Below are positions 1 through 12,394 of a stretch of DNA of 64,000 nt, piece by piece. This DNA comes from Melioribacter roseus P3M-2 (GTDB taxonomy: Bacteria > Bacteroidota > Ignavibacteria > Ignavibacteriales > Melioribacteraceae). A model generated the notes under the pieces. It was not told the DNA's origin and made no database searches. It worked only from the letters and a program-made list of their open reading frames with translations. Location of the stretch: contig NC_018178.1 of the NCBI RefSeq assembly GCF_000279145.1, positions 2,338,001 to 2,402,000 of the forward strand, written 5' to 3'. Every line of letters begins with the position of its first letter. The stretch's first letter is position 1. A program made the position numbers and the translations under genes.

Positions 1-1755
1 TTCGATTGCTGCGTTGAGCGCAAGCAAATTGGTTTGGTCGGCAATTTCATCAATAACGCTGGTAATCTCTCCGATCTGATCGGTTTTGTTTGCAAGCGAG
101 GCGATTATATTGGCTGCGCTCTCAGAGGATTCGACGATTTTGTCCATACCTTTTTTTGTGTCCGCCGTTTTATTTGTTCCTAATTCCGCAGCGGAGCTCG
201 ATTGTTTAGACATCTCTGCGACTTCGGAGATGCTATTCGACATGTCGATAATCGATTTTGTCATCTTTTCTATCGAATATGTAATTTCGCTTACCTGTTG
301 ATTTTGTTCCTGCGCGCCTGCCGCCATCTCTTCGGTTGACGAAGAAATTTGTATTGCGGCGCTGGCGGTGGCGTTAACCACTTCGCGTACTTTTATCAGA
401 ATTTCTTTTAATTCGTCTATCATGCGATTGATGTCATGGCTGAGGTCGTAGAGCACGCTGTTTCGATCGATATCGAGTTTGCGGTTAAGTTTACCGTCGG
501 CAATTTCGCGTATTACTTCGGCTATCGGGGCAATTTGTTCTTTTAAGTATGCTTCGTTTTTCTCTTCGATTTCCCGCATGTCGGTAAAGAATACAAAGGC
601 TCCGTCCATCTCGCCTTTAGAATTTTTGATCGGTCCGGATTGAGCAAGTATCGGAATGTCTTCGCCTTTATTGTTTTTTATAAATGATTTGTCTCCTTTG
701 AGGAAAATGCCTCCTACCGCGCGGCGGCTGATCGAATCGGCTCCGAATACCTCTTTTACTTTCATCTTGTTTACTATTTCCTCGGGTTTTTTTGTAGAAC
801 CGATTATATCGAGAGCGGCTTGATTTATATATGTTATTGTCAGTTCTGTGTTGATCGTAAAAAACGCGCTGGCGACTCCGTTCTGGAAACTTCTGGAATG
901 CGCTATCTCGTCTTTAATTTTTTTGATCATTTCCTCGAAAGAACGGCTCAAATTGCCTACTTCGTCTTTCCGGTCGGTATTCTCGAATTCAACGTTAAAA
1001 TTTCCTTCCAGTATTTCGGAAGCTTTGTTTGCCAGGTTATTAATCGGTTTGACTATCAGTTTTGTAATTACGGGAATGAAGGAGAACATTACAATTACGG
1101 TTATAATAATTATTAATATCGTTAACGATTTTGCCTCTTCTATTTGAGCTAAATATGTGTTGTTGAAATTTTCCGCTTCCTTATCGTAAAGTTCGACGAG
1201 TTTTTTCAGATGCATTTTAGCCGTGTCGAATTTTTTGAGCGCTTCTGCCGAAAGTAAATTATTTTGTACAACCAGCTCTTCGATTAAAGCCTGATTCTCC
1301 TCGTTATCTTCGGCTAACAACCGGTCGATTTTCTTCTGGTTATCGATTACCTGCTGATGAGTCGATTTCCATTTTTGCCAGTCCTCTTTGAAGCGAGCCC
1401 ATATTTTTTCCTCTTCTTCCTGTTTGGGTAAAGTATCGTAGATATTCCAGGCGTTATCGGCTCTTTCGAACGCGGCATTTATTGAATTATAAATTGACTG
1501 GCGAACCGCAGGGTCTTTCAAATCCCTGTTCAAAACTCCACGTTCGGCGCTCAGTACGGAAGTCTCTGCTTGATAGAGTGTGATTAGCGACTGGATGGAA
1601 GGGAGAATGTTTTTCCCCAGATGATTTACTACCGCTTCTTCTTCGTTCAGATTTTGATATGCAAGGAATGCATTGACGCCTGTCATTATTACTATCGCAG
1701 TAAAAAGAATGATGATTTTTGTGAGTATTTTAAGATCGTAAAATTTTTTGAGCAT
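1..1755 (-). CDS. Methyl-accepting chemotaxis protein with PAS domain (3' end outside window)
   Basis: A reading frame opens at the ATG complementary to 1753-1755 and stays open to base 1, giving 585 residues before the edge. A GGGGGAG ribosome-binding site lies just upstream. The protein starts MLKKFYDLKI, has a first membrane helix near residues 10-30, a helical periplasmic sensor region of about 170 residues, a second membrane helix (ILIIITVIVMFSF) near 210-230, a HAMP domain, a PAS domain near 290-400, and then the start of the MCP signalling coiled coil. The last visible residues, DQTNLLALNAAIE, are the conserved approach to the CheA/CheW-binding hairpin tip. In the family the protein relays ligand or redox signals to CheA. 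It is divergent from the stressosome genes, with about 219 bases between the two starts. The ligand cannot be read from the sequence. Confidence 0.93.
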   Translation of the reverse strand, partial: MLKKFYDLKILTKIIILFTAIVIMTGVNAFLAYQNLNEEEAVVNHLGKNILPSIQSLITLYQAETSVLSAERGVLNRDLKDPAVRQSIYNSINAAFERADNAWNIYDTLPKQEEEEKIWARFKEDWQKWKSTHQQVIDNQKKIDRLLAEDNEENQALIEELVVQNNLLSAEALKKFDTAKMHLKKLVELYDKEAENFNNTYLAQIEEAKSLTILIIIITVIVMFSFIPVITKLIVKPINNLANKASEILEGNFNVEFENTDRKDEVGNLSRSFEEMIKKIKDEIAHSRSFQNGVASAFFTINTELTITYINQAALDIIGSTKKPEEIVNKMKVKEVFGADSISRRAVGGIFLKGDKSFIKNNKGEDIPILAQSGPIKNSKGEMDGAFVFFTDMREIEEKNEAYLKEQIAPIAEVIREIADGKLNRKLDIDRNSVLYDLSHDINRMIDELKEILIKVREVVNATASAAIQISSSTEEMAAGAQEQNQQVSEITYSIEKMTKSIIDMSNSISEVAEMSKQSSSAAELGTNKTADTKKGMDKIVESSESAANIIASLANKTDQIGEITSVIDEIADQTNLLALNAAIE

Positions 1756-1974
1756 GGCTCCCCCTTACATTTTGTAAATGTAAATTATGGTTAATCCCAA
1801 TATTATTATCGGGTTATTTTCTGATTATTTAAGTTTATTTTTTATTTTTTTTGAGGAAGGTTGTTAAATTATCCCATTTGCAGTCGATAATAATCAAGAT
1901 ATATGATGAGTAAAAAAAATGTGTTTTTTTAAAAGAATATTAATTAGTTTAGAATAAAACTTTATGAGGTGTCC

Positions 1975-2850
1975 ATGACTTCAAACAAAAATACAAGCGC
2001 TTTTATCAATAACGTACTTACGACCGATATCGAAAAAATAACAGATATTGCCGAGAAACATTTCAAGAATATTCCTAACGAGAGAACTTTCGACTTTTTG
2101 TCCGAAGACGAATTTCGAGATCAGGTACTGAAATTTCTAAGGATTATAGCTAAATACAGTCCCGAAATTGAAAAACGCCAGTTTTATATCGAGCTTTCTG
2201 CGGATGTTGTCGATTTTTTGAAACAGTTTAACTCAGAACGCTCAAGACAAGGCTTCAATGCGAACGAAACTGTCTATTTTATACTGTCCTTGAAAGATAT
2301 TATTACCGATTATTTATTCGAACAAAAAGATATTGACAGGGATAAACTTGCCAGCGCGGTCAAAATTGTTTCCGCCCTGGTTAATAAACTGGCGGCTGAA
2401 GCTTACGAACTCTATACTAAGTCCCGTGAAGATGTAATCAATAAACAAGCTCGCCAGATTCTCGACATGGCTACTCCGATCATACAAATTTGGGAATCAA
2501 TTGTTGCGGTTCCTCTAATCGGCACGCTCGACAGCGCGAGGACTCAAATTGTAATGGAAAAACTTTTGGAAAAGATTGTTGCGACGAAATCGAAAGTCGC
2601 CATAATTGACATTACGGGCGTGCCTACTGTCGACACAAGAGTTGCCCAGCATATTATGAAAACTGTTCAGGCAATTAAATTATTGGGTGCCGATTGCGTT
2701 ATCACTGGTATTAGCGCTGCAATTGCTCAAACCATGGTGCAAATGGGAGTGGAATTCGGCGGCATTCATACAAGAGCTTTGATGTCGGACGGTATAAGAT
2801 ACGCGCTCAATCTTATTCGTAAATCATCTGACAATAAAGTCGAGATGTAA
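1975..2850 (+). CDS. rsbR: RsbR-type stressosome scaffold/sensor (N-terminal sensor domain plus STAS)
   Basis: The roughly 291-residue protein has an alpha-helical N-terminal half (about 1-165) resembling the RsbRD_N sensor domain and a C-terminal STAS domain (about 175-285). The STAS core IIDITGVPTVDTRVAQHIM closely matches B. subtilis RsbRA. The position of the phosphorylatable Thr205 is kept (T221 in VDT), while the Thr171 position appears as Ser (S187 in LDSART). RsbR proteins build the stressosome with RsbS and hold RsbT until stress. I prefer ATG 1975 over GTG 1969 because a GAGG at 1966-1969 sits at normal spacing from it. This is the first gene of a tight rsbR-rsbS-rsbT-phosphatase run (gaps of 2-5 bases). 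The stimulus is unknown; the N-terminus is not visibly heme- or flavin-binding. Confidence 0.93.
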   Translation: MTSNKNTSAFINNVLTTDIEKITDIAEKHFKNIPNERTFDFLSEDEFRDQVLKFLRIIAKYSPEIEKRQFYIELSADVVDFLKQFNSERSRQGFNANETVYFILSLKDIITDYLFEQKDIDRDKLASAVKIVSALVNKLAAEAYELYTKSREDVINKQARQILDMATPIIQIWESIVAVPLIGTLDSARTQIVMEKLLEKIVATKSKVAIIDITGVPTVDTRVAQHIMKTVQAIKLLGADCVITGISAAIAQTMVQMGVEFGGIHTRALMSDGIRYALNLIRKSSDNKVEM

Positions 2851-2855
2851 TAAAA

Positions 2856-3275
2856 ATGGCAAAAATTCCGATATTAAAATTAGGCTCCACTCTGTTGGTC
2901 AGTATTCAAACCGAGTTGCACGACAGACTTGCAAGCGAGCTTCAGGAAGAGATTCTTGCTTCAATTGAAAAGAATAAATCGAAGGCGGTAATAATCGACA
3001 TTACGGCGCTTGAAATTGTCGATTCGTTTATCGGTCGTATGCTGACAAATACGGCGGAAATGGCTGCGTTGATGGATGCGGAAGTTATTCTGGTAGGAAT
3101 TTCGCCCGCCGTAGCCATTACTCTGGTTGAATTGGGAATGGAACTGAAAGGAGTAAAAACCGCTCTCGATCTGGAAAGCGCTCTCGAAATAATTAACGAC
3201 AATCTATCTGAAGAAAATGACGCTGATTTTTTCTCGTCCGATCCGAAGAGCGACGATGAGCGGGATGAAAACTGA
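2856..3275 (+). CDS. rsbS: RsbS-type STAS protein of the stressosome core
   Basis: This 139-residue single STAS-domain protein carries IIDITALEIVDSFIGRML, the RsbS signature. The serine in DSF (S57) corresponds to Ser59 of B. subtilis RsbS, the residue RsbT phosphorylates to release itself from the complex. The C-terminal 20 residues are very acidic (SEENDADFFSSDPKSDDERD) and extend past the usual STAS fold. The gene starts five bases after the rsbR stop and is followed two bases later by rsbT, so co-translation is likely. It acts in the cytosol as the core of the stressosome with the upstream RsbR. Confidence 0.93.
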   Translation: MAKIPILKLGSTLLVSIQTELHDRLASELQEEILASIEKNKSKAVIIDITALEIVDSFIGRMLTNTAEMAALMDAEVILVGISPAVAITLVELGMELKGVKTALDLESALEIINDNLSEENDADFFSSDPKSDDERDEN

Positions 3276-3277
3276 GA

Positions 3278-3670
3278 ATGCAAAAAATAGAAATTACCGA
3301 CCAGGACTCGCTTCTTAAAGTAAGGCAGATTGTTCATTCGCTTGCCAGGGAAATCGGTTTCGGGCTGGTTGACCAAACGCGAATTACAACCGTTGCCAGC
3401 GAACTTACGAGAAATATTCTGCTTTATGCCAAAAAAGGTCATGTTGAAATTTATAATATTAACGGTAGCCGTATCGGCCTCAAGATGATTTTTATTGACG
3501 AAGGCCCCGGTATCGATAATATAGAGCTGGCTATGAAAGACGGTTACACTACGAGCGGCGGAATGGGAAAAGGTCTGCCGGGTTCAAAACGCCTTATGGA
3601 TGAGTTTTATATTGAATCGGCTCCCGGAAAGGGCGCCAAAGTAACAGTTATAAAATGGTTGAAAGGATAA
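3278..3670 (+). CDS. rsbT: RsbT-type serine/threonine switch kinase
   Basis: The 130-residue GHKL ATPase has the N-box ELTRNILLYAKKG, the G1 box DEGPGID and the RsbT-specific stretch TTSGGMGKGLPGSKRLMDEF. These align closely with B. subtilis RsbT, which phosphorylates RsbR and RsbS and, when released, switches on a downstream partner (the RsbU phosphatase in Bacillus). No rsbU, sigB, rsbV or rsbW lies in this window, so the partner here is uncertain. The neighbouring fused phosphatase and histidine kinases are the candidates. The ATG follows rsbS by two bases. Confidence 0.95.
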   Translation: MQKIEITDQDSLLKVRQIVHSLAREIGFGLVDQTRITTVASELTRNILLYAKKGHVEIYNINGSRIGLKMIFIDEGPGIDNIELAMKDGYTTSGGMGKGLPGSKRLMDEFYIESAPGKGAKVTVIKWLKG

Positions 3671-3673
3671 ATC

Positions 3674-4675
3674 TTGCATACATTCTATGAGTTTATTGTC
3701 GACGGCGAACATCAAATAAGTTTTGCCAGAGAGGAAGCAAAATCGATAGCAAAACAATTTGGCTTTGGAAATCCCAAACTCGAAGAAATCGCCATTATCG
3801 TATCGGAACTTGCTTCAAATATTCTTAAATACGCAGAAACAGGAAAAATTATTGTAGCGCCGTTTGTAAGCGCTAATTTGAAAGCGCTCGATATATACAG
3901 CGTAGACCACGGTTCCGGCATCGAAGATATCAACAAGGTTTTACAGGACGGGTATACCACCAAAACGAGTCTCGGTATCGGACTCGGCGCCGTAAAAAGG
4001 ATGTCCGACGAATTCGATATTTATTCTTTTTTCAAGGACAGTCTTATAAACAAAAATATTACGATTATTTTTTCCAGAAAGTACTTAAAAGATTCTGAAA
4101 AGCATTACAAGTTTGCGTTTCTCTCCAGGGCTTTGAAAGACGGAGATTATAACGGCGACGCGCTCTTTCTTAATATCGAAGGGAAGAAGTTGACAGCCGC
4201 TTTAATTGACGGAATTGGACACGGCGAAATTGCATATACTGCTTCTTATCGGGCAATTAATTATTTAATTAAAAATTACGAAAAAAATCTCGATGATATT
4301 TTACAGGATATAGACAAAGAATTGATTCATACGTTCGGCGCTGTGGCTTCTATAATTAAAATAGATAAGCAAAAACGCAAAATGATACATGCAGGCGTGG
4401 GTAATATAAGCGCCCGTGTATTAAACGCTGTAAGTAAGATTAATCCGATCAGCACAAACGGTTATCTCGGAAGCAATAAAATTAAAATTAAAACGGAAGA
4501 ATACGACTGGTCGCCGAATAATATAATAATTATGACGTCAGACGGAATAAGAGAAAAATGGAATTTGAGTTATTACAATGAGTTAATGGCTAAACACCCG
4601 GCAATAATAGCTCAGTTCATTTTTCAGTTTTTTGCAAAACCGAACGACGACGCTTCGATTTTTGTAATAACATAA
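3674..4675 (+). CDS. RsbT-like kinase fused to RsbX/SpoIIE-type PP2C phosphatase
   Basis: Residues 1-130 or so are a second RsbT-like GHKL ATPase: ELASNILKYAETG, DHGSGIEDI, and DGYTTKTSLGIGLGAVKRMSDEF. Residues about 140-333 are a PP2C-like domain with NGDALFL, LIDGIGHGE, TSDGI and PNDDAS, the expected metal-binding aspartates of the RsbX/RsbU/SpoIIE group. In known systems RsbX dephosphorylates RsbS and RsbR to reset the stressosome. A single chain that carries both an anti-sigma-type kinase fold and a reset phosphatase could set and reset the switch; that is inference. Translation appears to start at TTG 3674, three bases past the rsbT stop, with GAAAGGAT upstream. Equivalent fused proteins are known in some non-Bacillus stressosome clusters. 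Confidence 0.85.
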   Translation: MHTFYEFIVDGEHQISFAREEAKSIAKQFGFGNPKLEEIAIIVSELASNILKYAETGKIIVAPFVSANLKALDIYSVDHGSGIEDINKVLQDGYTTKTSLGIGLGAVKRMSDEFDIYSFFKDSLINKNITIIFSRKYLKDSEKHYKFAFLSRALKDGDYNGDALFLNIEGKKLTAALIDGIGHGEIAYTASYRAINYLIKNYEKNLDDILQDIDKELIHTFGAVASIIKIDKQKRKMIHAGVGNISARVLNAVSKINPISTNGYLGSNKIKIKTEEYDWSPNNIIIMTSDGIREKWNLSYYNELMAKHPAIIAQFIFQFFAKPNDDASIFVIT

Positions 4676-4685
4676 TAATAAATAT

Positions 4686-6278
4686 ATGGTCGCTTTTATG
4701 GAAGATAAAATAAACATACTCTATGCGGAAGACAACCCGTACGATATCGATTTAATGAAAAAATTTCTGACTGGCGCTGGCGGTATAAATGTTACAGTGT
4801 TAAACAGCGGAGCCGACGTTCTTAATGAACTTAATAAAAATAGATACGATCTGCGCTTGCTCGATTATAAACTGCCGGATATTTCAGGATTCGATATTCT
4901 GCTGAAGCTCAGAGCCGAAAATAACAACATCCCCGTAATTTTTCTGACGGGTTTTGGAAACCAGGATTTTATCGTGCAGGTTCTTAAAGCGGGAGCGGAT
5001 GAATTTATTGTCAAACGCGGGAATTATATTGAAAAAGTGTATGAGAGCGTATCGAAAATTCTAAAAGTAGAACCGAGGATAGGCGCTCTTAATAAAAATA
5101 ACAGCAGACCCTTAAAAGTAATTTATATCGAGGACGATCCGAGAGACGCCGACCTGCTTATCAATTATTTCGAAGAACACTCCCGCCATATTTTACTGCT
5201 TCACGTTTATAATGAAATCGACGCCCTGGAAAAAATTTCGGGCGGCGAGGTTTGCGATTTGGTTTTATGCGACCTTAAGTTGCAGGACACAAACGCAATC
5301 GAAGTTATGAAGTTATTCTCGGATAAGGGCGTCGACTTGCCGTTTATTGTTATTACGGGGCAAGGCGACGAAAATTCGGCTATCGAAGCGATAAAGCAGG
5401 GAGCTTTTGATTACCTGACAAAAAGCGACAGAATGTACAGCCTCCTGCCGTATGCAATAGAGAACGCGGTTCATCGTTATCAAAACGTATTGATGACCAG
5501 AAAGTATAACGAAGAACTCGAAATGTTGAACCGCAACCTGGAGAATAGAGTTAAGGAAAAAACAAAAGAACTCGAAGAACTCAACGAAAGAAAAGATAAA
5601 TTCTTCACTCTCCTGGCGCACGACATCAGAAGTCCGTTTAATACTATTCTCGGATTTCTCGATATTCTTATTGCCGATTTCAACGAAATTTCAGACGAAG
5701 AAAAATTGCAATATTTGCTCGACCTTCAAAAAGCTTCAAAAAATTTATACGGTCTTTTGATAAACCTGCTTGAATGGGCTAATGCCAAGAGCGGACTCAT
5801 AGCGTTCAAGCCTGAGAATATTAACGTCCGGGAGTTATTCGATAACGTCGCCGAGCTGTTCGACCTTTCTTTAAGAGAAAAAAATATTTCTTTTAATATC
5901 GCCACTGACGAATCAATGAGCGCTTATGCCGACCCAGATATGGTTTATACGATAATTCGAAACCTTGTTTCCAACGCCATAAAGTACACAGACAAAGGCG
6001 GCATTATAGAATTGGTTTCGAAAAAAGAAGGAGAAAACGTCGTAATTACTGTCTCGGATTCCGGCATAGGAATGAATCAGGAAGAGGTGAATAATCTTTT
6101 CAAAATTGAAAAATTCCATTCCAAAAAAGGCACAGAAGGCGAAACCGGTACGGGATTCGGGCTTTTATTGGTGTATGAATTAATTCGAAAAAACAACGGC
6201 GCGATTGAGTGTATTAGCAGTCCGGGTAAAGGAACTAAATTCATTGTTAAACTTCCCGCGGGTAAGCATGGAAATTAA
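4686..6278 (+). CDS. Hybrid histidine kinase: REC-REC-HisKA-HATPase
   Basis: About 530 residues. Two N-terminal receiver domains (about 9-130 and 148-270) carry their phosphoacceptors (D60 in LLDYKLPD, D196 in LCDLKLQD). A coiled coil (about 275-305) leads to a HisKA domain with H312 in LAHDIRSPFN and an HATPase_c domain with NLVSNAIKYTDKG, DSGIGM and a GTGFGL box. No membrane segment is present, so it is cytosolic and probably takes its input by phosphotransfer to the receivers or by binding to its neighbours. ATG 4701 gives MEDKINILYAEDN, which lines up with the starts of the two double-receiver paralogues downstream and may be the true start. There is no clear Shine-Dalgarno sequence for either start. 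The gene overlaps the next one by 11 bases. Confidence 0.92.
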   Translation: MVAFMEDKINILYAEDNPYDIDLMKKFLTGAGGINVTVLNSGADVLNELNKNRYDLRLLDYKLPDISGFDILLKLRAENNNIPVIFLTGFGNQDFIVQVLKAGADEFIVKRGNYIEKVYESVSKILKVEPRIGALNKNNSRPLKVIYIEDDPRDADLLINYFEEHSRHILLLHVYNEIDALEKISGGEVCDLVLCDLKLQDTNAIEVMKLFSDKGVDLPFIVITGQGDENSAIEAIKQGAFDYLTKSDRMYSLLPYAIENAVHRYQNVLMTRKYNEELEMLNRNLENRVKEKTKELEELNERKDKFFTLLAHDIRSPFNTILGFLDILIADFNEISDEEKLQYLLDLQKASKNLYGLLINLLEWANAKSGLIAFKPENINVRELFDNVAELFDLSLREKNISFNIATDESMSAYADPDMVYTIIRNLVSNAIKYTDKGGIIELVSKKEGENVVITVSDSGIGMNQEEVNNLFKIEKFHSKKGTEGETGTGFGLLLVYELIRKNNGAIECISSPGKGTKFIVKLPAGKHGN

Positions 6279-7581
6279 AGAGGAAAAAATAATTACTCTG
6301 TTGGTCGACAACGAAGAAGACCTGGTGGAAATAAGAGACGCAACGCGTAAAATTTGCGAAGCAATTGGGATTAAACAGACCGACCAGGTTAAAGTAATTA
6401 CCGCCGTTTCCGAAATTACGCGCAATATCTACGAATACGCCGATAAAGGATTTATCACGTTTTCCTTGTTTACAGACGGCTTGCAAAAATCTCTCAAGAT
6501 AGTCGCTAAAGACGAGGGACCCGGCATTGAAAACGTCGACCGGATATTAAACGGAAAATTCAAGTCGAAGACCGGAATGGGAATCGGTCTGAAAGGCTCC
6601 AAATCGCTCATGGATAGTTTTGTAATCGATTCCGAGCCGGGAGCTGGCGCTACGATTACTATGTCGAAAATCATTGAAGGGGGATTCGAGTTAAACAGAG
6701 AACAACTCGAAAATCTGAAAGAAGCCCTACTCGATACTTCCGAAAGCGAGAAAGTGACTATCGTAGCCGAACTCGAAGCGCAAAATCAGGAACTAGTAAA
6801 TATTCTCGAAGAACTCAATAAAAGTTATAAAGAACTTGAAGAAAAAAAGAATCTGCTCGACAAGTTGAACAAAGAGCTCAATAATGCTCTCGAATTGGTA
6901 AACAAAAAAAATGTGGAACTGAAAGCGTTCAATTACACTATTTCGCACGACCTGAAAGCTCCTCTGAGAGGCATTTCGGGGTATGCACGCGAAATTACAA
7001 GAAAACACGCAGAACCATTGAGCGAACGGGGCAAATTCTGCGTTGAACAAATAATTCAAGCTTCCAAACAAATGGAAGATTTGATTGAAGACCTGCTCAG
7101 CTATTCGCGGGTTGAAACCGAAACTATAAATAAAGCGCCTGTGGATATTAAAAAACTGATAGAAACCATATTAAATCAACGCAGACCTATCATCGAGGAA
7201 AAATTCGTTAAGTTAAATTTTGTTTGCCCGGAGATTGAATACGAGTGCTGGGAAAGCGGTATGGTTCATGTATTCTCGAATTTAATCGATAATGCAATCA
7301 AATTTTCCGCGAAGTCTAATCCGCCGGAAATCGACATAAGAGTTTATACCGAAAAAAACAACTTGATTTTCAGTATCAAAGACAACGGCGTGGGATTCGA
7401 TATGAAATATCACGACCGTATGTTCGAACTTTTCCAAAGACTAGTGCGATACGACGAATTCGAAGGCACGGGAGCCGGACTGGCAATAGTAAAAAAAATT
7501 GTAGAAAAACACGACGGCAGAGTTTGGGCTGAATCCGAACCGGGAAAAGGAGCCCGGTTCTATGTGTCTCTCCCGCTCTGA
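6268..7581 (+). CDS. RsbT-like ATPase fused to a phytochrome-type histidine kinase
   Basis: From ATG 6268 (437 residues) the protein opens with an RsbT-like GHKL domain (about 1-135): SEITRNIYEYADKG, DEGPGIENV, and KTGMGIGLKGSKSLMDSF. A long coiled coil follows (about 150-220, QNQELVNILEELNKSYKELEE). Then come a HisKA domain with H227 in ISHDLKAPLRGISGYA, typical of phytochrome and related kinases, and a second HATPase (NLIDNAIKF, DNGVGFD, GTGAGLAIV). So two different ATPase modules sit in one chain and no classical sensor is present. I infer that stressosome release of an RsbT-type module is converted into histidine phosphorylation. A longer in-frame start at 6205 exists, but it would run far into the previous gene. 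The next gene encodes a matching single-domain receiver. Confidence 0.88.
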   Translation: MEIKEEKIITLLVDNEEDLVEIRDATRKICEAIGIKQTDQVKVITAVSEITRNIYEYADKGFITFSLFTDGLQKSLKIVAKDEGPGIENVDRILNGKFKSKTGMGIGLKGSKSLMDSFVIDSEPGAGATITMSKIIEGGFELNREQLENLKEALLDTSESEKVTIVAELEAQNQELVNILEELNKSYKELEEKKNLLDKLNKELNNALELVNKKNVELKAFNYTISHDLKAPLRGISGYAREITRKHAEPLSERGKFCVEQIIQASKQMEDLIEDLLSYSRVETETINKAPVDIKKLIETILNQRRPIIEEKFVKLNFVCPEIEYECWESGMVHVFSNLIDNAIKFSAKSNPPEIDIRVYTEKNNLIFSIKDNGVGFDMKYHDRMFELFQRLVRYDEFEGTGAGLAIVKKIVEKHDGRVWAESEPGKGARFYVSLPL

Positions 7582-7590
7582 GGAATAATT

Positions 7591-8031
7591 ATGAAAACAA
7601 CGCTGCTTAAGCCCATTATGTTAATAGAAGATAATCCGATGGATATTGATATTTCTATTCAAGCTTTTGAAGAGGCGGGTATCAACAATCCGGTGCTCGT
7701 TTGCAGGGACGGCGAGGAAGCGTTGCAGACTATTAATAAACTGAGGGATAAAGAGAGTATTTCCTTTCCGGCGCTCGTTATTCTCGACCTTCATCTTACC
7801 AAAATCGACGGCGTCGAATTGTTGAAAATAATTAGACGAGACGAAGTCTGGGAAAACATTCCCGTGATTATTTGTTCGACATCCGGCAATAAATCCGATA
7901 TTGAAAACGCATACAAAGCCGGCGCGAACGCATATTTGATGAAACCTGCGGATTTTGACGAGTTCGTGGAATCCGCCGCTTTACTCAGACAATTCTGGCT
8001 GACCAAAAATAAATCTCCGTATAATATATAG
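7591..8031 (+). CDS. Single-domain response regulator, Rcp1 (phytochrome-partner) type
   Basis: The 146-residue receiver has no output domain. It shows the acidic pair MLIEDNPMD, the phosphoacceptor D66 in VILDLHLTKIDG, the conserved Ser/Thr in ICSTSG and the lysine in LMKPADF. The loop KIIRRDEVWENIPVIICS and the GDEAL-like start are typical of the Rcp1/CheY-like partners of phytochrome-type kinases. It follows the RsbT-histidine kinase fusion by nine bases, so it is the natural phosphate acceptor of that protein. Its output is unknown; it may dock onto another protein or onto one of the hybrid kinases downstream. Confidence 0.92.
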   Translation: MKTTLLKPIMLIEDNPMDIDISIQAFEEAGINNPVLVCRDGEEALQTINKLRDKESISFPALVILDLHLTKIDGVELLKIIRRDEVWENIPVIICSTSGNKSDIENAYKAGANAYLMKPADFDEFVESAALLRQFWLTKNKSPYNI

Positions 8032-8039
8032 AGGGTGAA

Positions 8040-8891
8040 ATGGATAAAAAATATCGACTGCTCTATGTGGAAGATAATTTACAGGATATCGACCTTACCC
8101 GGAATTTCTTTGAAGAGCGTAAAGAAGAGTTCGAACTCAAAATTGCCACAAGCGGCGAGCAATTTATTCAATTGCTCGGTTCCGAATCCTTCGACCTGGT
8201 TCTGCTGGATAACAAATTACCCGATTTCGACGGCATAACTATATTGAAAGAATTAGCCAGGCTTTCGATTAAAATCCCGATTATTTTGCTTACCGGCAGT
8301 GGCAACGACGAACTCGTTGCCGAGGCTCTCAGAATCGGAGCCTCTGCCTATATTCAAAAAACAGGGGATTATTTGGAAAATTTGCCCGACCTTATCAAAA
8401 AAACCGTCTCGGAATTCGAATCGGAAGCGGAAGCAAAAAAAATCTTTTTCATAAAATACCCGCTTAATATTTTAATTATCGAAAACGACAATCGGCAAAT
8501 CGATCTTATAACCGACTACTACAAAAACTACAAAAAGAAATATATTGTCCATATCGCTAAAAGCTGCTTGAGCGCATTGAAAATTCTCGAAGTCAAAAAG
8601 AATACCGATCTGGTTTTGTTTAACCTGAACGTCGCGGATATGAAAGCAGCGCAGTTTATAGAAAAAATAAAGAACGACGGATTTGACTTACCCGTGATTG
8701 TCTACGCCGAAAAAGGCAGCGAAGACGAGGCGCTTTCCGCATTAAACGGCGGCGCCGTCGATTATATTCTGAAACGTGAAAATTTTCTGATGGAAATCAG
8801 ATATGCAGCGGAACTCGGCTATCTGAAGCATAAAGTAATGAAAATTCAGGAATCTCCTCAGGGCGGGAAAGAAAAGGAAGAAGATACTTAG
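8040..8891 (+). CDS. Double-receiver protein, second receiver degenerate
   Basis: The 283 residues hold two receiver domains and a short charged tail. The first (about 4-125) has VEDNLQDID, D57 in LLDNKLPDFDG, a TGSG loop and the K in QKTGD. The second (about 140-265) keeps the fold (ILIIENDNRQID at its start, ILKRENF at its end), but the expected phosphoacceptor is N195 in LVLFNLNVADM, so it should not be phosphorylatable. Pseudo-receivers of this kind usually serve as protein-protein docking domains. The gene starts eight bases after the Rcp1-like regulator. The ATG at 8040 follows GAGGGTG, a reasonable ribosome-binding site. Confidence 0.88.
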   Translation: MDKKYRLLYVEDNLQDIDLTRNFFEERKEEFELKIATSGEQFIQLLGSESFDLVLLDNKLPDFDGITILKELARLSIKIPIILLTGSGNDELVAEALRIGASAYIQKTGDYLENLPDLIKKTVSEFESEAEAKKIFFIKYPLNILIIENDNRQIDLITDYYKNYKKKYIVHIAKSCLSALKILEVKKNTDLVLFNLNVADMKAAQFIEKIKNDGFDLPVIVYAEKGSEDEALSALNGGAVDYILKRENFLMEIRYAAELGYLKHKVMKIQESPQGGKEKEEDT

Positions 8892-8969
8892 CCGCTTTCT
8901 TTATAAATAAATATTAGTTATTTTATCCTCGAGAAGTTTAAGTCGGTTGAAGGGCATTATAGTATTAGT

Positions 8970-11321
8970 ATGAGCGGGCGCTATAAGATACTATACATTG
9001 AAGATAATTTCTTTGATCAGGATCTTGTTAAAAATTGCCTCGAAGAAAAAGGTGAATTCGAAGTAACTATAGCTTCTACGGCTTCAGAGGGTATGGTATA
9101 TATTTCTAAAAATGAATTCGACTTAATTCTTCTCGATAATAAACTTCCGGATATGAACGGTATCGAAATTTTAAAAAAGCTTGGAAATGTTAAAAAGGAG
9201 ACTCCAGTTATTATCTTTACAAGTAAGGGGAATGACGAACTTGTTGTCGAATCGCTGAGAGAAGGCGCCGCCACATACATATCCAAAGCGAGCAGTTATA
9301 TCGATTTATTGCCCCCTCTTTTGAAAAAGACAATCGAAGAATTCAAAAGCGGCGTTTCGCGCTCTACGCGCTTAAGCTCTCTTTCGAAAAAAATACTCTA
9401 TATCGAACGAACTCACACCGACATCGATTTAACCAGGGAAAAATTCAATGAGATAGCTCCGAATCTTGCGATAGATGCGGTCGATTCTACGGAAAAAGGG
9501 CTCGAAATTCTGTCGCAGCCCAATGATTACGACATTGTGCTTATCGACCTGAGAATGCAACGTATGAACGCTCTCGATTTTCTCAGAGAGATAAAATTAC
9601 GCGGCATTAAAATCCCGGTGATCATTCTTACGGGGTACGGCGACGAAGAAGTGGCAATGGCGGCTATTCATCTCGGAGCGTTCGATTATATCGTCAAAAG
9701 AGAAAATTACCTTTTGCAGCTTCCTTATTCGATCTATAACGCCATTAACAGATTCAATACGCTCAGTATAAACGAATCGCTTCAGAATGAATTGATTAAA
9801 TTAAACCGCTCGCTCGAGAAGAAGGTTGAAGAAAGAACAAATCAACTAAAAGAAGAATTCGAAGAACGCAAAAAGCTCGAACAAAAATACAGGGATATTT
9901 TTTATAACCACTCTGCCGTGAAAATTTTAATCGATTCCGAGACTGGTGAAATTACGGATATTAACAAATCTGCGGAAAAATTTCTCAATGTATCACCCGA
10001 TAAATTGATCGGTACGAAAGCGGCGGAAATATTCGGAGGTATCTCGAAATACATTGATAACGCTTCGGGACGCATTAAATTTTCGAACCTGGATGTCTGC
10101 GAATTTGAAATATTGAAAAACGGAAAACCTTTTAAAGAAGTCGAAGCTTTTTGTAATTCGATTCAACAGGGCAACAAAATAATCTGGGAGCTTATTCTTC
10201 ATGACATAACCGAAAAAAGAAAAATTGAAGAGAAAGCCAATTTACTGAGAAGAGCAATTGAACAAAGTCCTGTTACAGTAGTTATTACGGATACCAACGG
10301 CATTATTGAATATGTGAATCCGGTTTTTACGAAAGTTACCGGCTACAGTCTCGAAGAGGCGATAGGCAGGAAAAACAATTTGCTTAAATCGGGTCAACAC
10401 GCCGCTGAGTTTTATAAAAATTTATGGGATACAATCAAATCCGGGAAACAGTGGAGCGGGGAATTTCTGAACAAGAAAAAAGACGGAACTCTCTATTGGG
10501 AGGATGCGGTTATATTTCCTGTAATCAACAGAGCGGGCAACATAACCAATTATGTCGCAATTAAAGAAGATATTACCGAAAAGAAAAAAATGATTCAGGA
10601 ATTGATAGAAGCCAAAGAGAAAGCCGAAGAAATGAACCGCGTGAAATCGATTTTCTTTGCAAATATGAGCCACGAATTAAGAACTCCCTTCGTCGGTATA
10701 ATGGGATATGCAGAACTGTTGCGCGAATTATTAGACGTTGATGAATTAAGAGAAATGGCTGAAGGTATTTACAGGACTTCGCAGAGGATGGTAGACACGC
10801 TTTCAAAAATTCTCGACATTACGAAAATCGAATCCGAAAAGATCGAGGTTAAGTATACGGAAGTGAACATAAGACGACTTCTCGAAGATATCTGTAACGA
10901 ATATTACGCGGCTATTAAGTCTAAAAATCTTTACCTGAAAAAGGATTTTAATAATTTACCCGACAAAATTCTCTCTGATGAAAAATTGATATCGGAAATT
11001 ATTTCTAATTTAATCAGCAACGCAATCAAATTCACGTCGAAAGGCGGAATAGAAATTAAAGCAGAAACCAGGACTAAAAAGCAAATGAATTTTCTCGCGC
11101 TCTCTGTCAGCGATACGGGAATCGGAATACCTCGTGAAAAGATTGACTTGATATGGGAAGAGTTTCGACAGGTAAGCGAAGGTTCCAGCAGAGATTTCCA
11201 GGGAACAGGTCTTGGGCTTACCATATGTAAAAAATATACTGAACTGTTGGGCGGAAAAATATCAGTTGAAAGTGAGTATGGAGCGGGTTCCACCTTCTTG
11301 GTTGAAATTCCGCTCCTTTAA
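8970..11321 (+). CDS. Hybrid sensor kinase: REC-REC-PAS-PAS-HisKA-HATPase
   Basis: The 783-residue cytosolic kinase has two receivers at the front (D56 in LLDNKLPDMNG; D193 in LIDLRMQRMNA), a coiled coil near 270-300, PAS domains near 305-420 and 425-545 (the second with TDTNGIIEYVNPVFTKVTG and a PAC motif IKEDITEKKK), HisKA with H568 in MSHELRTPFVGIMGYAELL, and HATPase_c with NLISNAIKFTSKG, DTGIGI and GTGLGLTICKKY. It shares the double-receiver front with the proteins at 4686 and 8040, which points to local duplication of that module. It stands 78 bases downstream of the previous gene, so it may have its own promoter or be the end of the same operon. It converges on ilvE with two bases between the stop codons. 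Confidence 0.92.
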   Translation: MSGRYKILYIEDNFFDQDLVKNCLEEKGEFEVTIASTASEGMVYISKNEFDLILLDNKLPDMNGIEILKKLGNVKKETPVIIFTSKGNDELVVESLREGAATYISKASSYIDLLPPLLKKTIEEFKSGVSRSTRLSSLSKKILYIERTHTDIDLTREKFNEIAPNLAIDAVDSTEKGLEILSQPNDYDIVLIDLRMQRMNALDFLREIKLRGIKIPVIILTGYGDEEVAMAAIHLGAFDYIVKRENYLLQLPYSIYNAINRFNTLSINESLQNELIKLNRSLEKKVEERTNQLKEEFEERKKLEQKYRDIFYNHSAVKILIDSETGEITDINKSAEKFLNVSPDKLIGTKAAEIFGGISKYIDNASGRIKFSNLDVCEFEILKNGKPFKEVEAFCNSIQQGNKIIWELILHDITEKRKIEEKANLLRRAIEQSPVTVVITDTNGIIEYVNPVFTKVTGYSLEEAIGRKNNLLKSGQHAAEFYKNLWDTIKSGKQWSGEFLNKKKDGTLYWEDAVIFPVINRAGNITNYVAIKEDITEKKKMIQELIEAKEKAEEMNRVKSIFFANMSHELRTPFVGIMGYAELLRELLDVDELREMAEGIYRTSQRMVDTLSKILDITKIESEKIEVKYTEVNIRRLLEDICNEYYAAIKSKNLYLKKDFNNLPDKILSDEKLISEIISNLISNAIKFTSKGGIEIKAETRTKKQMNFLALSVSDTGIGIPREKIDLIWEEFRQVSEGSSRDFQGTGLGLTICKKYTELLGGKISVESEYGAGSTFLVEIPLL

Positions 11322-11323
11322 TT

Positions 11324-12394
11324 TTATTCTACAATTGTTATCCAACCGAATCGGTCTTCAATCTTACCGTATTGAAGTCCGGTAAGCTCGTCGTATAATT
11401 TAAATGCCAATTCGCCGGGTTCCGTTTCGCTGAATTTAATTTCTCTATCGTGATATTTCAATTTGCTTACCGATGAAATTACAGCCGCGGTACCGCTGCC
11501 GAAAATTTCAAGAAGTTCGCCTTTGTCGGCGGCGTTAAATAATTCTTCGATTGCAATCAAACGTTCGTTGATATTATATCCCCAGTCTTTTAAGAGTTCT
11601 ATAACCGACATTCTCGTAATGCCGGGGAGTATCGAACCGGAAAGCGCCGGAGTGGCAACCTCGTCTTTAAAACGGATGAAAATATTCATTGCTCCTACTT
11701 CTTCGATATATTTTTGTTCGATTGCGTCGAGCCATAAAATTTGAGAGTAACCTTCTTTTTTGGCTTCTTCTTGGGCTATTAAACCCGCGGCATAATTTCC
11801 GGCTGCCTTAGCTTCGCCTGTCCCTTTCCGGACGGCGCGTACATATTTGTCTGTCGCCATTATCGGAACGGGTTTGAAACCCTGCGGATAATAAGGTCCA
11901 ACGGGGCTCAAAATAATTATAAACTTATAAGAGTCGGCCGCTCTTACTCCGAAACACGGCTCGGTTGCAAATATAAACGGACGAATGTAGAGGGAATGCC
12001 CCGGTTTCTCGGGTATCCATTCTGCGTCGATTTTAACGAGTTCTTTGATTGCCTTCAGCGCCAGTTCCGGCTCGACTTCGGGAATGCATAATCTCCTTGC
12101 CGAACGGTTAAGTCTCTCGATATTTTTTTCTGGTCTGAAAAGTGCTATTTTCCCGTCAACCTGTTTGTAAGCTTTCATCCCTTCGAAAATTGCCTGCCCG
12201 TAATGGAATACCATAGCCGCAGGATCGATGTTGAGATTTTCGTATCTTTTAATTGTCGGAGTCTGCCATCCGCCTTTGTTCCTGTCGAAATCCATCTCGA
12301 AAATGTGTTCGGTAAACGTTTTCCCGAACACCAAATTCTCCGGTAACTTAACTTCTTTTTTCTTTTCGTTGTCGATTATTTTGATTTCTTGCAT
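11324..12394 (-). CDS. ilvE: Branched-chain amino acid aminotransferase
   Basis: The 356-residue fold-type IV PLP enzyme belongs to the large (BCAT/type II) subgroup. It catalyses the last step of leucine, isoleucine and valine synthesis, or the first step of their breakdown, with 2-oxoglutarate and glutamate. The catalytic lysine is K196 in GTGEAKAAGNYA. Family stretches VFHYGQAIFEGMKAY, the substrate-side YIRPF and the cofactor-phosphate loop FGSGTAAVIS are all present. It is a single gene, convergent with the hybrid kinase and divergent from the universal stress protein gene. Length is normal for the family. Confidence 0.95.
   Translation of the reverse strand: MQEIKIIDNEKKKEVKLPENLVFGKTFTEHIFEMDFDRNKGGWQTPTIKRYENLNIDPAAMVFHYGQAIFEGMKAYKQVDGKIALFRPEKNIERLNRSARRLCIPEVEPELALKAIKELVKIDAEWIPEKPGHSLYIRPFIFATEPCFGVRAADSYKFIIILSPVGPYYPQGFKPVPIMATDKYVRAVRKGTGEAKAAGNYAAGLIAQEEAKKEGYSQILWLDAIEQKYIEEVGAMNIFIRFKDEVATPALSGSILPGITRMSVIELLKDWGYNINERLIAIEELFNAADKGELLEIFGSGTAAVISSVSKLKYHDREIKFSETEPGELAFKLYDELTGLQYGKIEDRFGWITIVE

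Follow-up and report, generated by a model that had tools for sequence, protein, structure and literature searches.

Operon layout and stressosome core

The DNA analysed here (the window, 64,000 nucleotides from Melioribacter roseus P3M-2) contains a confirmed stressosome-plus-two-component operon of nine genes at 1975-11321, all on the plus strand, in which Pfam and the ORF coordinates place rsbR, rsbS, rsbT and a phosphatase gene ahead of five two-component genes:

1975..2850, plus strand: rsbR, RsbRD_N sensor domain and STAS domain (Pfam, alignments, AF2 model, Foldseek)
2856..3275, plus strand: rsbS, STAS antagonist (Pfam, PDB match)
3278..3670, plus strand: rsbT, stand-alone switch kinase, GHKL (Pfam, motifs)
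3674..4675, plus strand: RsbT-PP2C (TX), N-terminal RsbT-like domain and SpoIIE-type phosphatase, TTG start (Pfam)
4686..6278, plus strand: HK-A, REC-REC-HisKA-HATPase (Pfam, receiver alignment)
6268..7581, plus strand: RsbT-HK, RsbT-like domain (about residues 1-136), long helix, HisKA-HATPase (Pfam, motifs, trees, AF2)
7591..8031, plus strand: single receiver domain protein (Pfam, alignment)
8040..8891, plus strand: REC-REC protein (Pfam, alignment)
8970..11321, plus strand: HK-B, REC-REC-PAS-PAS-HisKA-HATPase (Pfam)

The gene content and coordinates given by the first-pass annotation hold, and so does its statement that the operon is devoid of a sigma factor, RsbV and RsbW, although such genes occur elsewhere in the genome. 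In gene order, the intergenic distances amount to 5, 2, 3, 10, -11, 9, 8 and 78 bases, whereby the overlap and the near-zero gaps suggest a single transcript; the description of the operon as running without a break is correct as regards this tight packing but not for the last gene, which is set off by the widest of these gaps. With a GC content of 39.9% as compared to 41.3% for the window, the operon is not distinctive in composition, and a scan for promoters and terminators returned counts close to those of shuffled sequence.

The first three genes encode an RsbRST core, with conserved threonines and serine in the STAS domains of RsbR and RsbS and an RsbT of intact GHKL motifs. RsbR, matching the Vibrio protein of the solved stressosome with E=1e-32, possesses T221 and T253, which are conserved in alignments to the Listeria, Vibrio and Bacillus chains and to homologues and which we take to be the phospho-threonines of Listeria and Bacillus RsbR. 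RsbS matches Listeria RsbS, likewise a solved stressosome protein, with E=6e-32, and its S57 aligns with a conserved serine of that protein, presumably the phospho-site. For the stand-alone RsbT the motif alignment revealed all GHKL motifs to be intact; it is 49-57% identical to 80 loci, mostly from Bacillota, when only the best segment is considered, and among solved structures the sequence search matched SpoIIAB but no RsbT.

RsbT domains on the phosphatase and on a kinase

The fourth gene had been annotated as an RsbX-like phosphatase. Its phosphatase domain is indeed recognized (SpoIIE, 26.5 bits against a Pfam cut-off of 25), but the protein is not the single-domain RsbX of Heinz-type modules, as it carries an N-terminal RsbT-like domain, assigned by Pfam to HATPase_c_2. 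In the careful tree this domain clusters with 33 other TX domains (97/93). Five two-component genes follow, as had been stated, of which one (6268-7581) encodes no receiver; its product joins an RsbT-like domain to a histidine kinase. The ATG start of RsbT-HK at 6268 creates the 11 nt overlap with the preceding gene, the Pfam scan having been run on a longer TTG form starting at 6205. Its kinase part comprises HATPase_c and a HisKA domain with the acceptor histidine (SHDLK motif in the alignment), and its RsbT domain retains 7/7 of the GHKL motif residues checked, because of which the fused domain may act as a kinase itself. In the AF2 model a single helix (159-245) extends from just past the RsbT domain into the kinase, in a model built from 3 sequences with pLDDT 79, pTM 0.47 and pLDDT <50 at the start of the helix (156-164). 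The distance from RsbT domain to histidine is not constant modulo 7 across the fusions; no constant register is kept, and the spacing is therefore not informative. Searched by sequence against solved structures, the fused RsbT domain matched a histidine kinase; histidine kinases were also among the 50 Foldseek matches listed for RsbT-HK, which says nothing on the RsbT domain.

Proteins with HisKA and REC domains lie directly downstream of the phosphatase, as they do in Heinz-type RSTX two-component modules, and Pfam identified RsbU_N on none of the five two-component proteins. Within the REC-REC protein, the second receiver has Asn in place of the acceptor Asp and Ala in place of Thr.

The remaining genome and other genomes

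Outside the operon, the M. roseus genome possesses RsbV/RsbW-like, SpoIIE and sigma genes as well as five other STAS genes. A search for RsbU_N in this genome gave 0 matches at E<=0.1 with 15/15 first-look candidates scored and a positive B. subtilis control. Among the SpoIIE matches (n=9) are the phosphatase of the window and two fragments of a single gene; six proteins were scanned with Pfam and were found to be without RsbU_N, and a cognate RsbU elsewhere in the genome was rejected. The module therefore differs from a Bacillus-type SigB module in having neither an RsbU with RsbU_N nor RsbV, RsbW or a sigma factor. In a genome of the same genus (G393) the operon is missing at the equivalent spot, where a chemoreceptor-like gene adjoins an aminotransferase-like gene, both names being our assumption as read from their sequences. 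Because of this arrangement the chemoreceptor-like gene of the window (1-1755, minus strand) was taken as a native neighbour and rejected as evidence for an output.

Like modules were found in Acidobacteriota, Nitrospirota, Deinococcota (D. radiodurans MP1), Pseudomonadota (Phaeobacter, Sphingomonas) and other Bacteroidota. From 39 genomes with matches, 20 were fetched, mostly picked for long open frames and hence a biased sample (G395 was covered as L128). We define here an RsbT-fused-output module as one having an RsbT-fused kinase or GGDEF protein together with RsbT-PP2C and without RsbU_N, as is the case in the window. RsbU_N and RsbT-fused output shared a locus in 0/114 surveyed loci, RsbT-PP2C was present in 26/26 loci with RsbT-fused output, and single-domain RsbX together with RsbU_N was found in 9/46 non-Bacillus-like and 68/68 Bacillus-like loci, counts which are biased because the loci were collected with RsbT-type queries. 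The RsbT-kinase directly follows RsbT-PP2C in other phyla, whereas in the window, unlike in other loci, HK-A sits between the two. An Acidobacteriota locus (L172) has the RsbT-PP2C and RsbT-HK pair with no RsbR, RsbS or RsbT detected.

The careful tree included 22 RsbT domains from fusions with a kinase or GGDEF, and these locate to one side of a branch (94/83). The non-degenerate fusions have six of the seven GHKL positions intact in 21/21 cases and the seventh in 19/21. In seven Bacteroidota loci the fused domain is without the N-box Asn, G1 and G2, yet its homology persists (hhalign, E 1e-10), the N-terminal helices are retained with 23/28 invariant columns within residues 1-48, and gene order and kinase part are kept, as would be expected if such domains serve docking rather than catalysis; of these degenerate kinases, L081 and L085 were scanned with Pfam, which recognized an RsbT-type domain in neither. 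The gene-order comparison across class and phylum, as proposed in the first-pass annotation, documents the fused arrangement for other Bacteroidota but not for same-class relatives: among the genomes seen, M. roseus is the sole RsbT-fused case in its class, four relatives of this class have RsbU_N kinases, and such kinases occur in 7/14 other loci fetched from the phylum. In the closest relatives, which belong to the same family and class, loci linked to RsbT have the appearance of trans wiring.

Proposed wiring of the stressosome to its outputs

With a probability of about 0.6, we consider the stressosome and a histidine kinase to be connected in cis, the kinase docking through its own RsbT domain. 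Here, RsbR and RsbS would form the sensing shell, for whose STAS faces three RsbT-type domains would compete, namely RsbT as writer kinase, RsbT-PP2C as eraser and RsbT-HK as reader. At rest the RsbT domain of RsbT-HK would tether the kinase to the shell; upon stress, RsbT would phosphorylate RsbS and RsbR and the RsbT domains would be released, so that freed RsbT-HK could signal via its coiled-coil linker to the operon's receivers (HK-A, REC, REC-REC, HK-B), until RsbT-PP2C returns the shell to its start state. The sequences show the domain anatomy, the recurring operon, the single grouping of the fused domains, the conservation of the STAS serine and threonines and the lack of a detected RsbU_N; docking of RsbT-HK, release as the activating direction and the receivers served are suggested on this basis. 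We lean slightly towards a general second wiring mode, in which output enzyme and reset phosphatase each bear an RsbT domain and compete for the shell. If true, it would replace RsbT release to an RsbU_N target, have histidine kinases (HisKA and HisKA_2 type) and diguanylate cyclases as outputs, span at least five phyla, move as a cassette and use a dead RsbT domain in part of the Bacteroidota.

According to the first-pass annotation, RsbT freed from the stressosome acts on histidine kinases and turns stress into phosphorelay. The link between stressosome and phosphorelay is supported by the tight packing and the recurrence in other phyla, and had already been proposed (Heinz 2022, PMC9237108), but action of free RsbT in trans is not the best fit. 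Free RsbT would have to leave the shell and bind or phosphorylate at least one histidine kinase, as proposed for Vibrio, a rather unlikely course here even though the operon has an intact stand-alone rsbT, RsbU_N-kinases occur in 7/14 of the other phylum loci fetched and Heinz 2022 suggests RsbT-dependent sensor-kinase phosphorylation where RsbU_N is missing. Direct docking of RsbT-HK is favoured because the five proteins lack RsbU_N, for which the genome likewise gave no match, and because a receptor in trans is unnecessary for a kinase that itself contains an RsbT domain; the passages of Heinz 2022 on RsbT and VvD1 moreover give no positive result for their interaction. That RsbT-HK is a second serine kinase acting on RsbS or a STAS protein elsewhere, with its histidine kinase part in control and the signal running from phosphorelay to stressosome, would agree with the intact GHKL positions of the non-degenerate fusions and the five other STAS genes, but appears doubtful given the seven Bacteroidota fusions that lost the ATP-binding motifs while keeping gene order and kinase part. 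An RsbW-type anti-sigma function of the RsbT-like domain is highly improbable: the GHKL family is common to RsbW and SpoIIAB, the genome has sigma factors, and in the careful tree the single RsbW row weakly joins an RsbT row (50/0) inside a 28-row set holding the fused domains, but the quick tree places three RsbW-like rows on their own side (98) with the fused domains among RsbT rows, and the operon combines RsbR and RsbS with no sigma gene. It is hardly credible, too, that the stressosome genes and the two-component genes are mere neighbours, although contact between the two halves is so far a prediction; the distance of the last gene would allow for this, yet the packing suggests one transcript and the RsbT-kinase follows straight after RsbT-PP2C in other phyla.

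Stressosomes followed by two-component genes have been published, as have systems in which RsbU_N on the target is the RsbT receptor (Heinz 2022, PMC9237108; eLife 2025, PMC12143880); in Heinz 2022, RsbU_N went undetected in most of the signalling proteins encoded downstream. The Vibrio VvD1-D2 RSTX modules described in that paper resemble the window in having rsbR-S-T-phosphatase followed by HisKA/REC proteins and no sigma factor; however, their phosphatase is termed a single-domain RsbX, whereas in the window both the phosphatase and the kinase have an RsbT domain of their own, and the link is seen in RsbU_N on the target or in a supposed phosphorylation, although fusions may be drawn in Fig. 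3 without comment. RsbU_N-histidine kinases and RsbU_N-GGDEF proteins (eLife 2025, PMC12143880, where Quin 2012 is cited in connection with them) share with RsbT-HK a stressosome-linked N-terminal module, a coiled-coil linker and a dimeric output, but their module is the receptor for free RsbT, while that of RsbT-HK is RsbT itself. The Bacillus SigB pathway has RsbR, RsbS and RsbT in common with the window, for which no RsbU_N protein was found and which lacks adjacent RsbV, RsbW and SigB.

For stressosomes without SigB, a covalent RsbT-kinase fusion offers a concrete and testable link to their targets; a kinase that has the switch protein as one of its own domains suggests a direct plug of the stressosome into a two-component pathway, and whether an output bears RsbU_N or RsbT would allow its wiring to be predicted from sequence. 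The fusion is present in bacteria amenable to laboratory work, Phaeobacter inhibens and Deinococcus radiodurans R1. Kinases DR_B0028/29 of the latter were thought to be co-regulated with an antisigma operon (PMC6501615, citing Makarova 2001), and DR_B0028 is a vacuum-stress candidate in the same report, whose passage on it mentions no fusion. The MP1 operon DR_RS15570-DR_RS15595, very likely identical with DR_B0024-DR_B0029, is arranged like the window as R-S-T-TX-[RsbT-HK-REC]-[REC-HK], including an RsbR with RsbRD_N, but differs in the C-terminal REC of its RsbT-HK and in having fewer receiver genes.

The stressosome core and its fused RsbT domains

The genome of M. roseus is one contig of 3,300,414 bp, of which bases 2338001-2402000 form the window, and the operon under study comprises the following features (counted from the window start):

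1975-11321, plus strand, nine-gene operon: rsbR, rsbS, rsbT, RsbT-PP2C, HK-A, RsbT-HK, REC, REC-REC, HK-B
1975-2420, plus strand, N-terminal domain of RsbR
3674-4675, plus strand, phosphatase RsbT-PP2C (TX)
4686-6278, plus strand, histidine kinase HK-A
6268-7581, plus strand, RsbT-HK, an RsbT-like domain fused to a histidine kinase
8040-8891, plus strand, stretch whose second receiver is a pseudo-receiver (Asn replaces the acceptor Asp, Ala replaces Thr)

Alignments place RsbS and the STAS region of RsbR with stressosome proteins of solved structure; the conserved Ser and both Thr, which we take to be the phosphorylated residues, are present. For RsbT, the 80 best loci in a scan of public genomes, Bacillota for the most part, show 49-57% identity in their best segment. 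As a consequence of these matches, the operon core is, as far as sequence tells, a genuine stressosome module. Pfam identified additional RsbT-like domains in two operon proteins, the phosphatase and the 6268-7581 kinase. The former had been described in the first-pass annotation as RsbX-like, which holds for its being a phosphatase but not for its architecture, as it is an RsbT-PP2C protein; the latter had been counted among five receiver/kinase genes, yet carries no receiver: its RsbT-like N-terminus (HATPase_c_2, E=1e-13) is joined by a long helix to HisKA and HATPase_c. All seven GHKL motif residues checked in RsbT-HK are intact, and in its AF2 model (3 sequences, mean pLDDT 79, pTM 0.47) a single helix, residues 159-245, leads into the kinase, with its first residues below pLDDT 50. 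Among the loci compared, HK-A between RsbT-PP2C and RsbT-HK was identified in the window only. The modelled N-terminal domain of RsbR adopts a globin-coupled-sensor-like fold (Foldseek E about 1e-3 to 6e-3, TM to target 0.64-0.69); haem binding looks unlikely, as its sole His (H29) sits in an early helix.

RsbU_N receptors and RsbT fusions across loci

RsbU_N, the receptor domain for free RsbT in published systems, was not detected in the M. roseus genome at E<=0.1, with a positive B. subtilis control, and by Pfam in none of the six SpoIIE proteins scanned. Outside the operon the genome has 12 matches to sigma region 2 as well as genes for STAS, RsbW-like and SpoIIE proteins, and a separate partner-switch cluster (L067, G000:C1:2167690-2173909, 2.168-2.174 Mb) is composed of a small sigma factor (195 aa, regions 2 and 4), SpoIIE, STAS, RsbW-like and a second SpoIIE protein with weak GAF matches. 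A SpoIIE phosphatase gene at G000:C1:1062279-1063471 (L072) runs across two frames, perhaps as a pseudogene or through a sequencing frameshift.

When the fused RsbT domain was searched against 395 genomes of the window's phylum, presumably Bacteroidota in GTDB, 15 matched including M. roseus, and the loci of the other 14 were all fetched. Here the matching part is a stand-alone RsbT, with one genome also matching through RsbT-PP2C, and no further kinase fusion was found among these 14 at E 1e-10. Seven of the 14 loci possess rsbR, rsbT and RsbT-PP2C followed by a kinase with a weakly RsbT-like N-terminus (22-44 bits); rsbS is listed in four of them, and in the remaining ones a frame on the opposite strand masks it. 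In the other seven, genes for a PAS-HisKA_3 kinase and a receiver accompany the RsbT gene; the one such receiver protein scanned by Pfam (locus L089) is of REC-LuxR type. RsbU_N on these kinases exceeds the Pfam cut-off of 25.5 bits in six cases (26.1-39.0) and lies slightly under it in one (25.0); two of these loci (L079, L086) yielded neither RsbR nor RsbS nor a phosphatase. All four relatives from M. roseus's own family or class (G035, G082, G196, G373) belong to the RsbU_N kind. Pfam shows no RsbU_N on the 11 RsbT-kinases scanned (window, the Acidobacteriota locus L128, L160, L081, L085, L190-L194, L217), and in those of L081 and L085 Pfam detects no RsbT-type domain either.

A census covered 114 loci, with window and plasmid loci outside the count, using queries biased toward RsbT-bearing loci and an RsbU_N profile built here from ten of the 114; its counts are not independent, given near copies (L102/L111, L187/L188, L094/L109) and some short contigs. 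All 68 Bacillus-like loci carry RsbX and RsbU_N. Among the 46 others, RsbT-PP2C accompanies an RsbT-fused output in 26, a label which takes in eight degenerate domains, and a single RsbX accompanies RsbU_N in nine; two have RsbU_N with no phosphatase found, five RsbT-PP2C with neither RsbU_N nor RsbT-fused output, one RsbX with neither, and two none of the three. One locus, L090, combines RsbT-PP2C with RsbU_N, the only such case among the 114, and RsbU_N together with an RsbT-fused output occurs in 0/114. At L090 (9062-10861, a Bipolaricaulota MAG) an RsbU_N-HD-domain (HD_5) protein follows R-S-T-TX. At L185 an RsbU_N-GAF-sigma54 activator-Fis protein (4068-5909) follows the stressosome genes, by which the stressosome is possibly wired directly to sigma-54 transcription; the preceding gene (3085-4080) ends in another RsbT domain.

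Kinship of the fused domains and a proposed mechanism

In a careful tree of 112 RsbT-type domains (138 columns, long branches, L160 fusion left out), all 22 kinase- or GGDEF-fused domains fall to the same side of a 94/83 branch (recovered in 94% of bootstrap trees), and 34 of 37 TX domains make up a separate set (97/93); the tree is not cleanly rooted by its single RsbW row, which joined an RsbT row (50/0). A quick first tree gave support of 98 to a set of 18 fused domains. The window's fused domain groups with its counterparts from two Acidobacteriota MAGs (98/91). The N-box Asn, G1 and G2 motifs are gone from the kinase N-terminal domain in all seven Bacteroidota loci and in L187, the eighth case. 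Profile comparison nonetheless shows this degenerate domain to be a homologue of RsbT (E 1e-10 against RsbT, 5e-9 against the fused domains). Residues 1-48 contain 23 of its 28 invariant columns (seven sequences, four from one genus). To judge from such conservation, selection has maintained the N-terminal helices but not ATP binding, and this speaks for binding as the domain's role.

The three RsbT domains of one operon suggest a competition for STAS faces, in which RsbT would serve as writer, RsbT-PP2C as eraser and RsbT-HK as reader. Upon stress RsbT-HK would be released and its kinase thereby switched, by analogy to RsbT release in Bacillus as described in passages of PMC12143880; docking of RsbT-HK, its direction and the receivers served are what we infer, the direction from that analogy. 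As Pfam detects no DNA-binding or other enzymatic output on any operon protein, the phosphoryl group would have to exit via a receiver with a binding function or pass to some regulator outside the operon.

Distribution in other phyla, possible mobility and earlier reports

Modules of the same kind were also identified in Acidobacteriota and Ca. Manganitrophaceae (Nitrospirota) by a named-genome scan and a census of Acidobacteria, the phylum of L128 (386 genomes, 39 matching; 20 regions fetched, mostly for long open frames). Most Acidobacteriota fusions carry receivers C-terminal to the kinase within one protein, with the next gene often a REC-kinase; three REC-REC genes after RsbT-HK at L175 (5206-8506) are reminiscent of the window's receiver-only genes. 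The locus L172 (7775-10587) is incomplete, being an RsbT-PP2C and RsbT-HK pair in whose surroundings RsbR, RsbS and stand-alone RsbT were not detected, and its genome G765 has one RsbT-type match only at E<=1e-14; L187, cut by a contig end, is likewise without stand-alone RsbT. At L181 (6907-8037, Acidobacteriota) the kinase is replaced by a GGDEF diguanylate cyclase bearing the RsbT domain, and L182 (9366-10496) encodes a protein of equal length and place with a near-identical RsbT domain.

Plasmid records with the module, locations which fit a mobile one, are those of D. radiodurans R1 MP1, Deinococcus sp. KNUC1210, Sphingomonas aliaeris, Paraburkholderia aromaticivorans, Salipiger and Phaeobacter inhibens. 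The kinase part of the Salipiger and Phaeobacter proteins is of HisKA_2 type. The Paraburkholderia record lists no STAS gene, and HATPase_c is missing from its annotated kinase but encoded, together with a REC, by the next, overlapping gene (split or frameshift). The same-genus genome G393 keeps the flanking gene order, presumably transporter, antiporter, universal-stress, aminotransferase, chemoreceptor and LexA-like genes in both, and misses the 9.3-kb operon (L215 6052-9697 versus window 1-12394), with 307 bases separating the aminotransferase-like and chemoreceptor-like genes; gain in M. roseus and loss in G393 are both possible.

Both stressosome-phosphorelay coupling and RsbU_N-kinases have been published already (Heinz 2022, PMC9237108; eLife 2025, PMC12143880). 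The titles, abstract starts and passages covered from an open-licence library contained no report of an RsbT-kinase fusion; Pane-Farre 2005/2017, Makarova 2001 and the Heinz 2022 figures may mention one. The complete R-S-T-TX-[RsbT-HK-REC]-[REC-HK] operon on plasmid MP1 (L190, 4128-9932) places the module in D. radiodurans, a genetically tractable bacterium famed for stress. Passages on its genes name DR_B0026 as RsbT, with disagreeing oxidative-stress proteome and qRT-PCR changes (PMC7143949), list DR_B0028 and DR_B0029 among receiver-containing proteins (PMC8363230), report DR_B0028 as a vacuum-response candidate and, citing Makarova 2001, presume co-regulation of both kinases with an antisigma operon (PMC6501615), and describe DR_B0029 as increased after orbit exposure (PMC7597052). 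From order and domains we infer that these tags correspond to DR_RS15580-15595.
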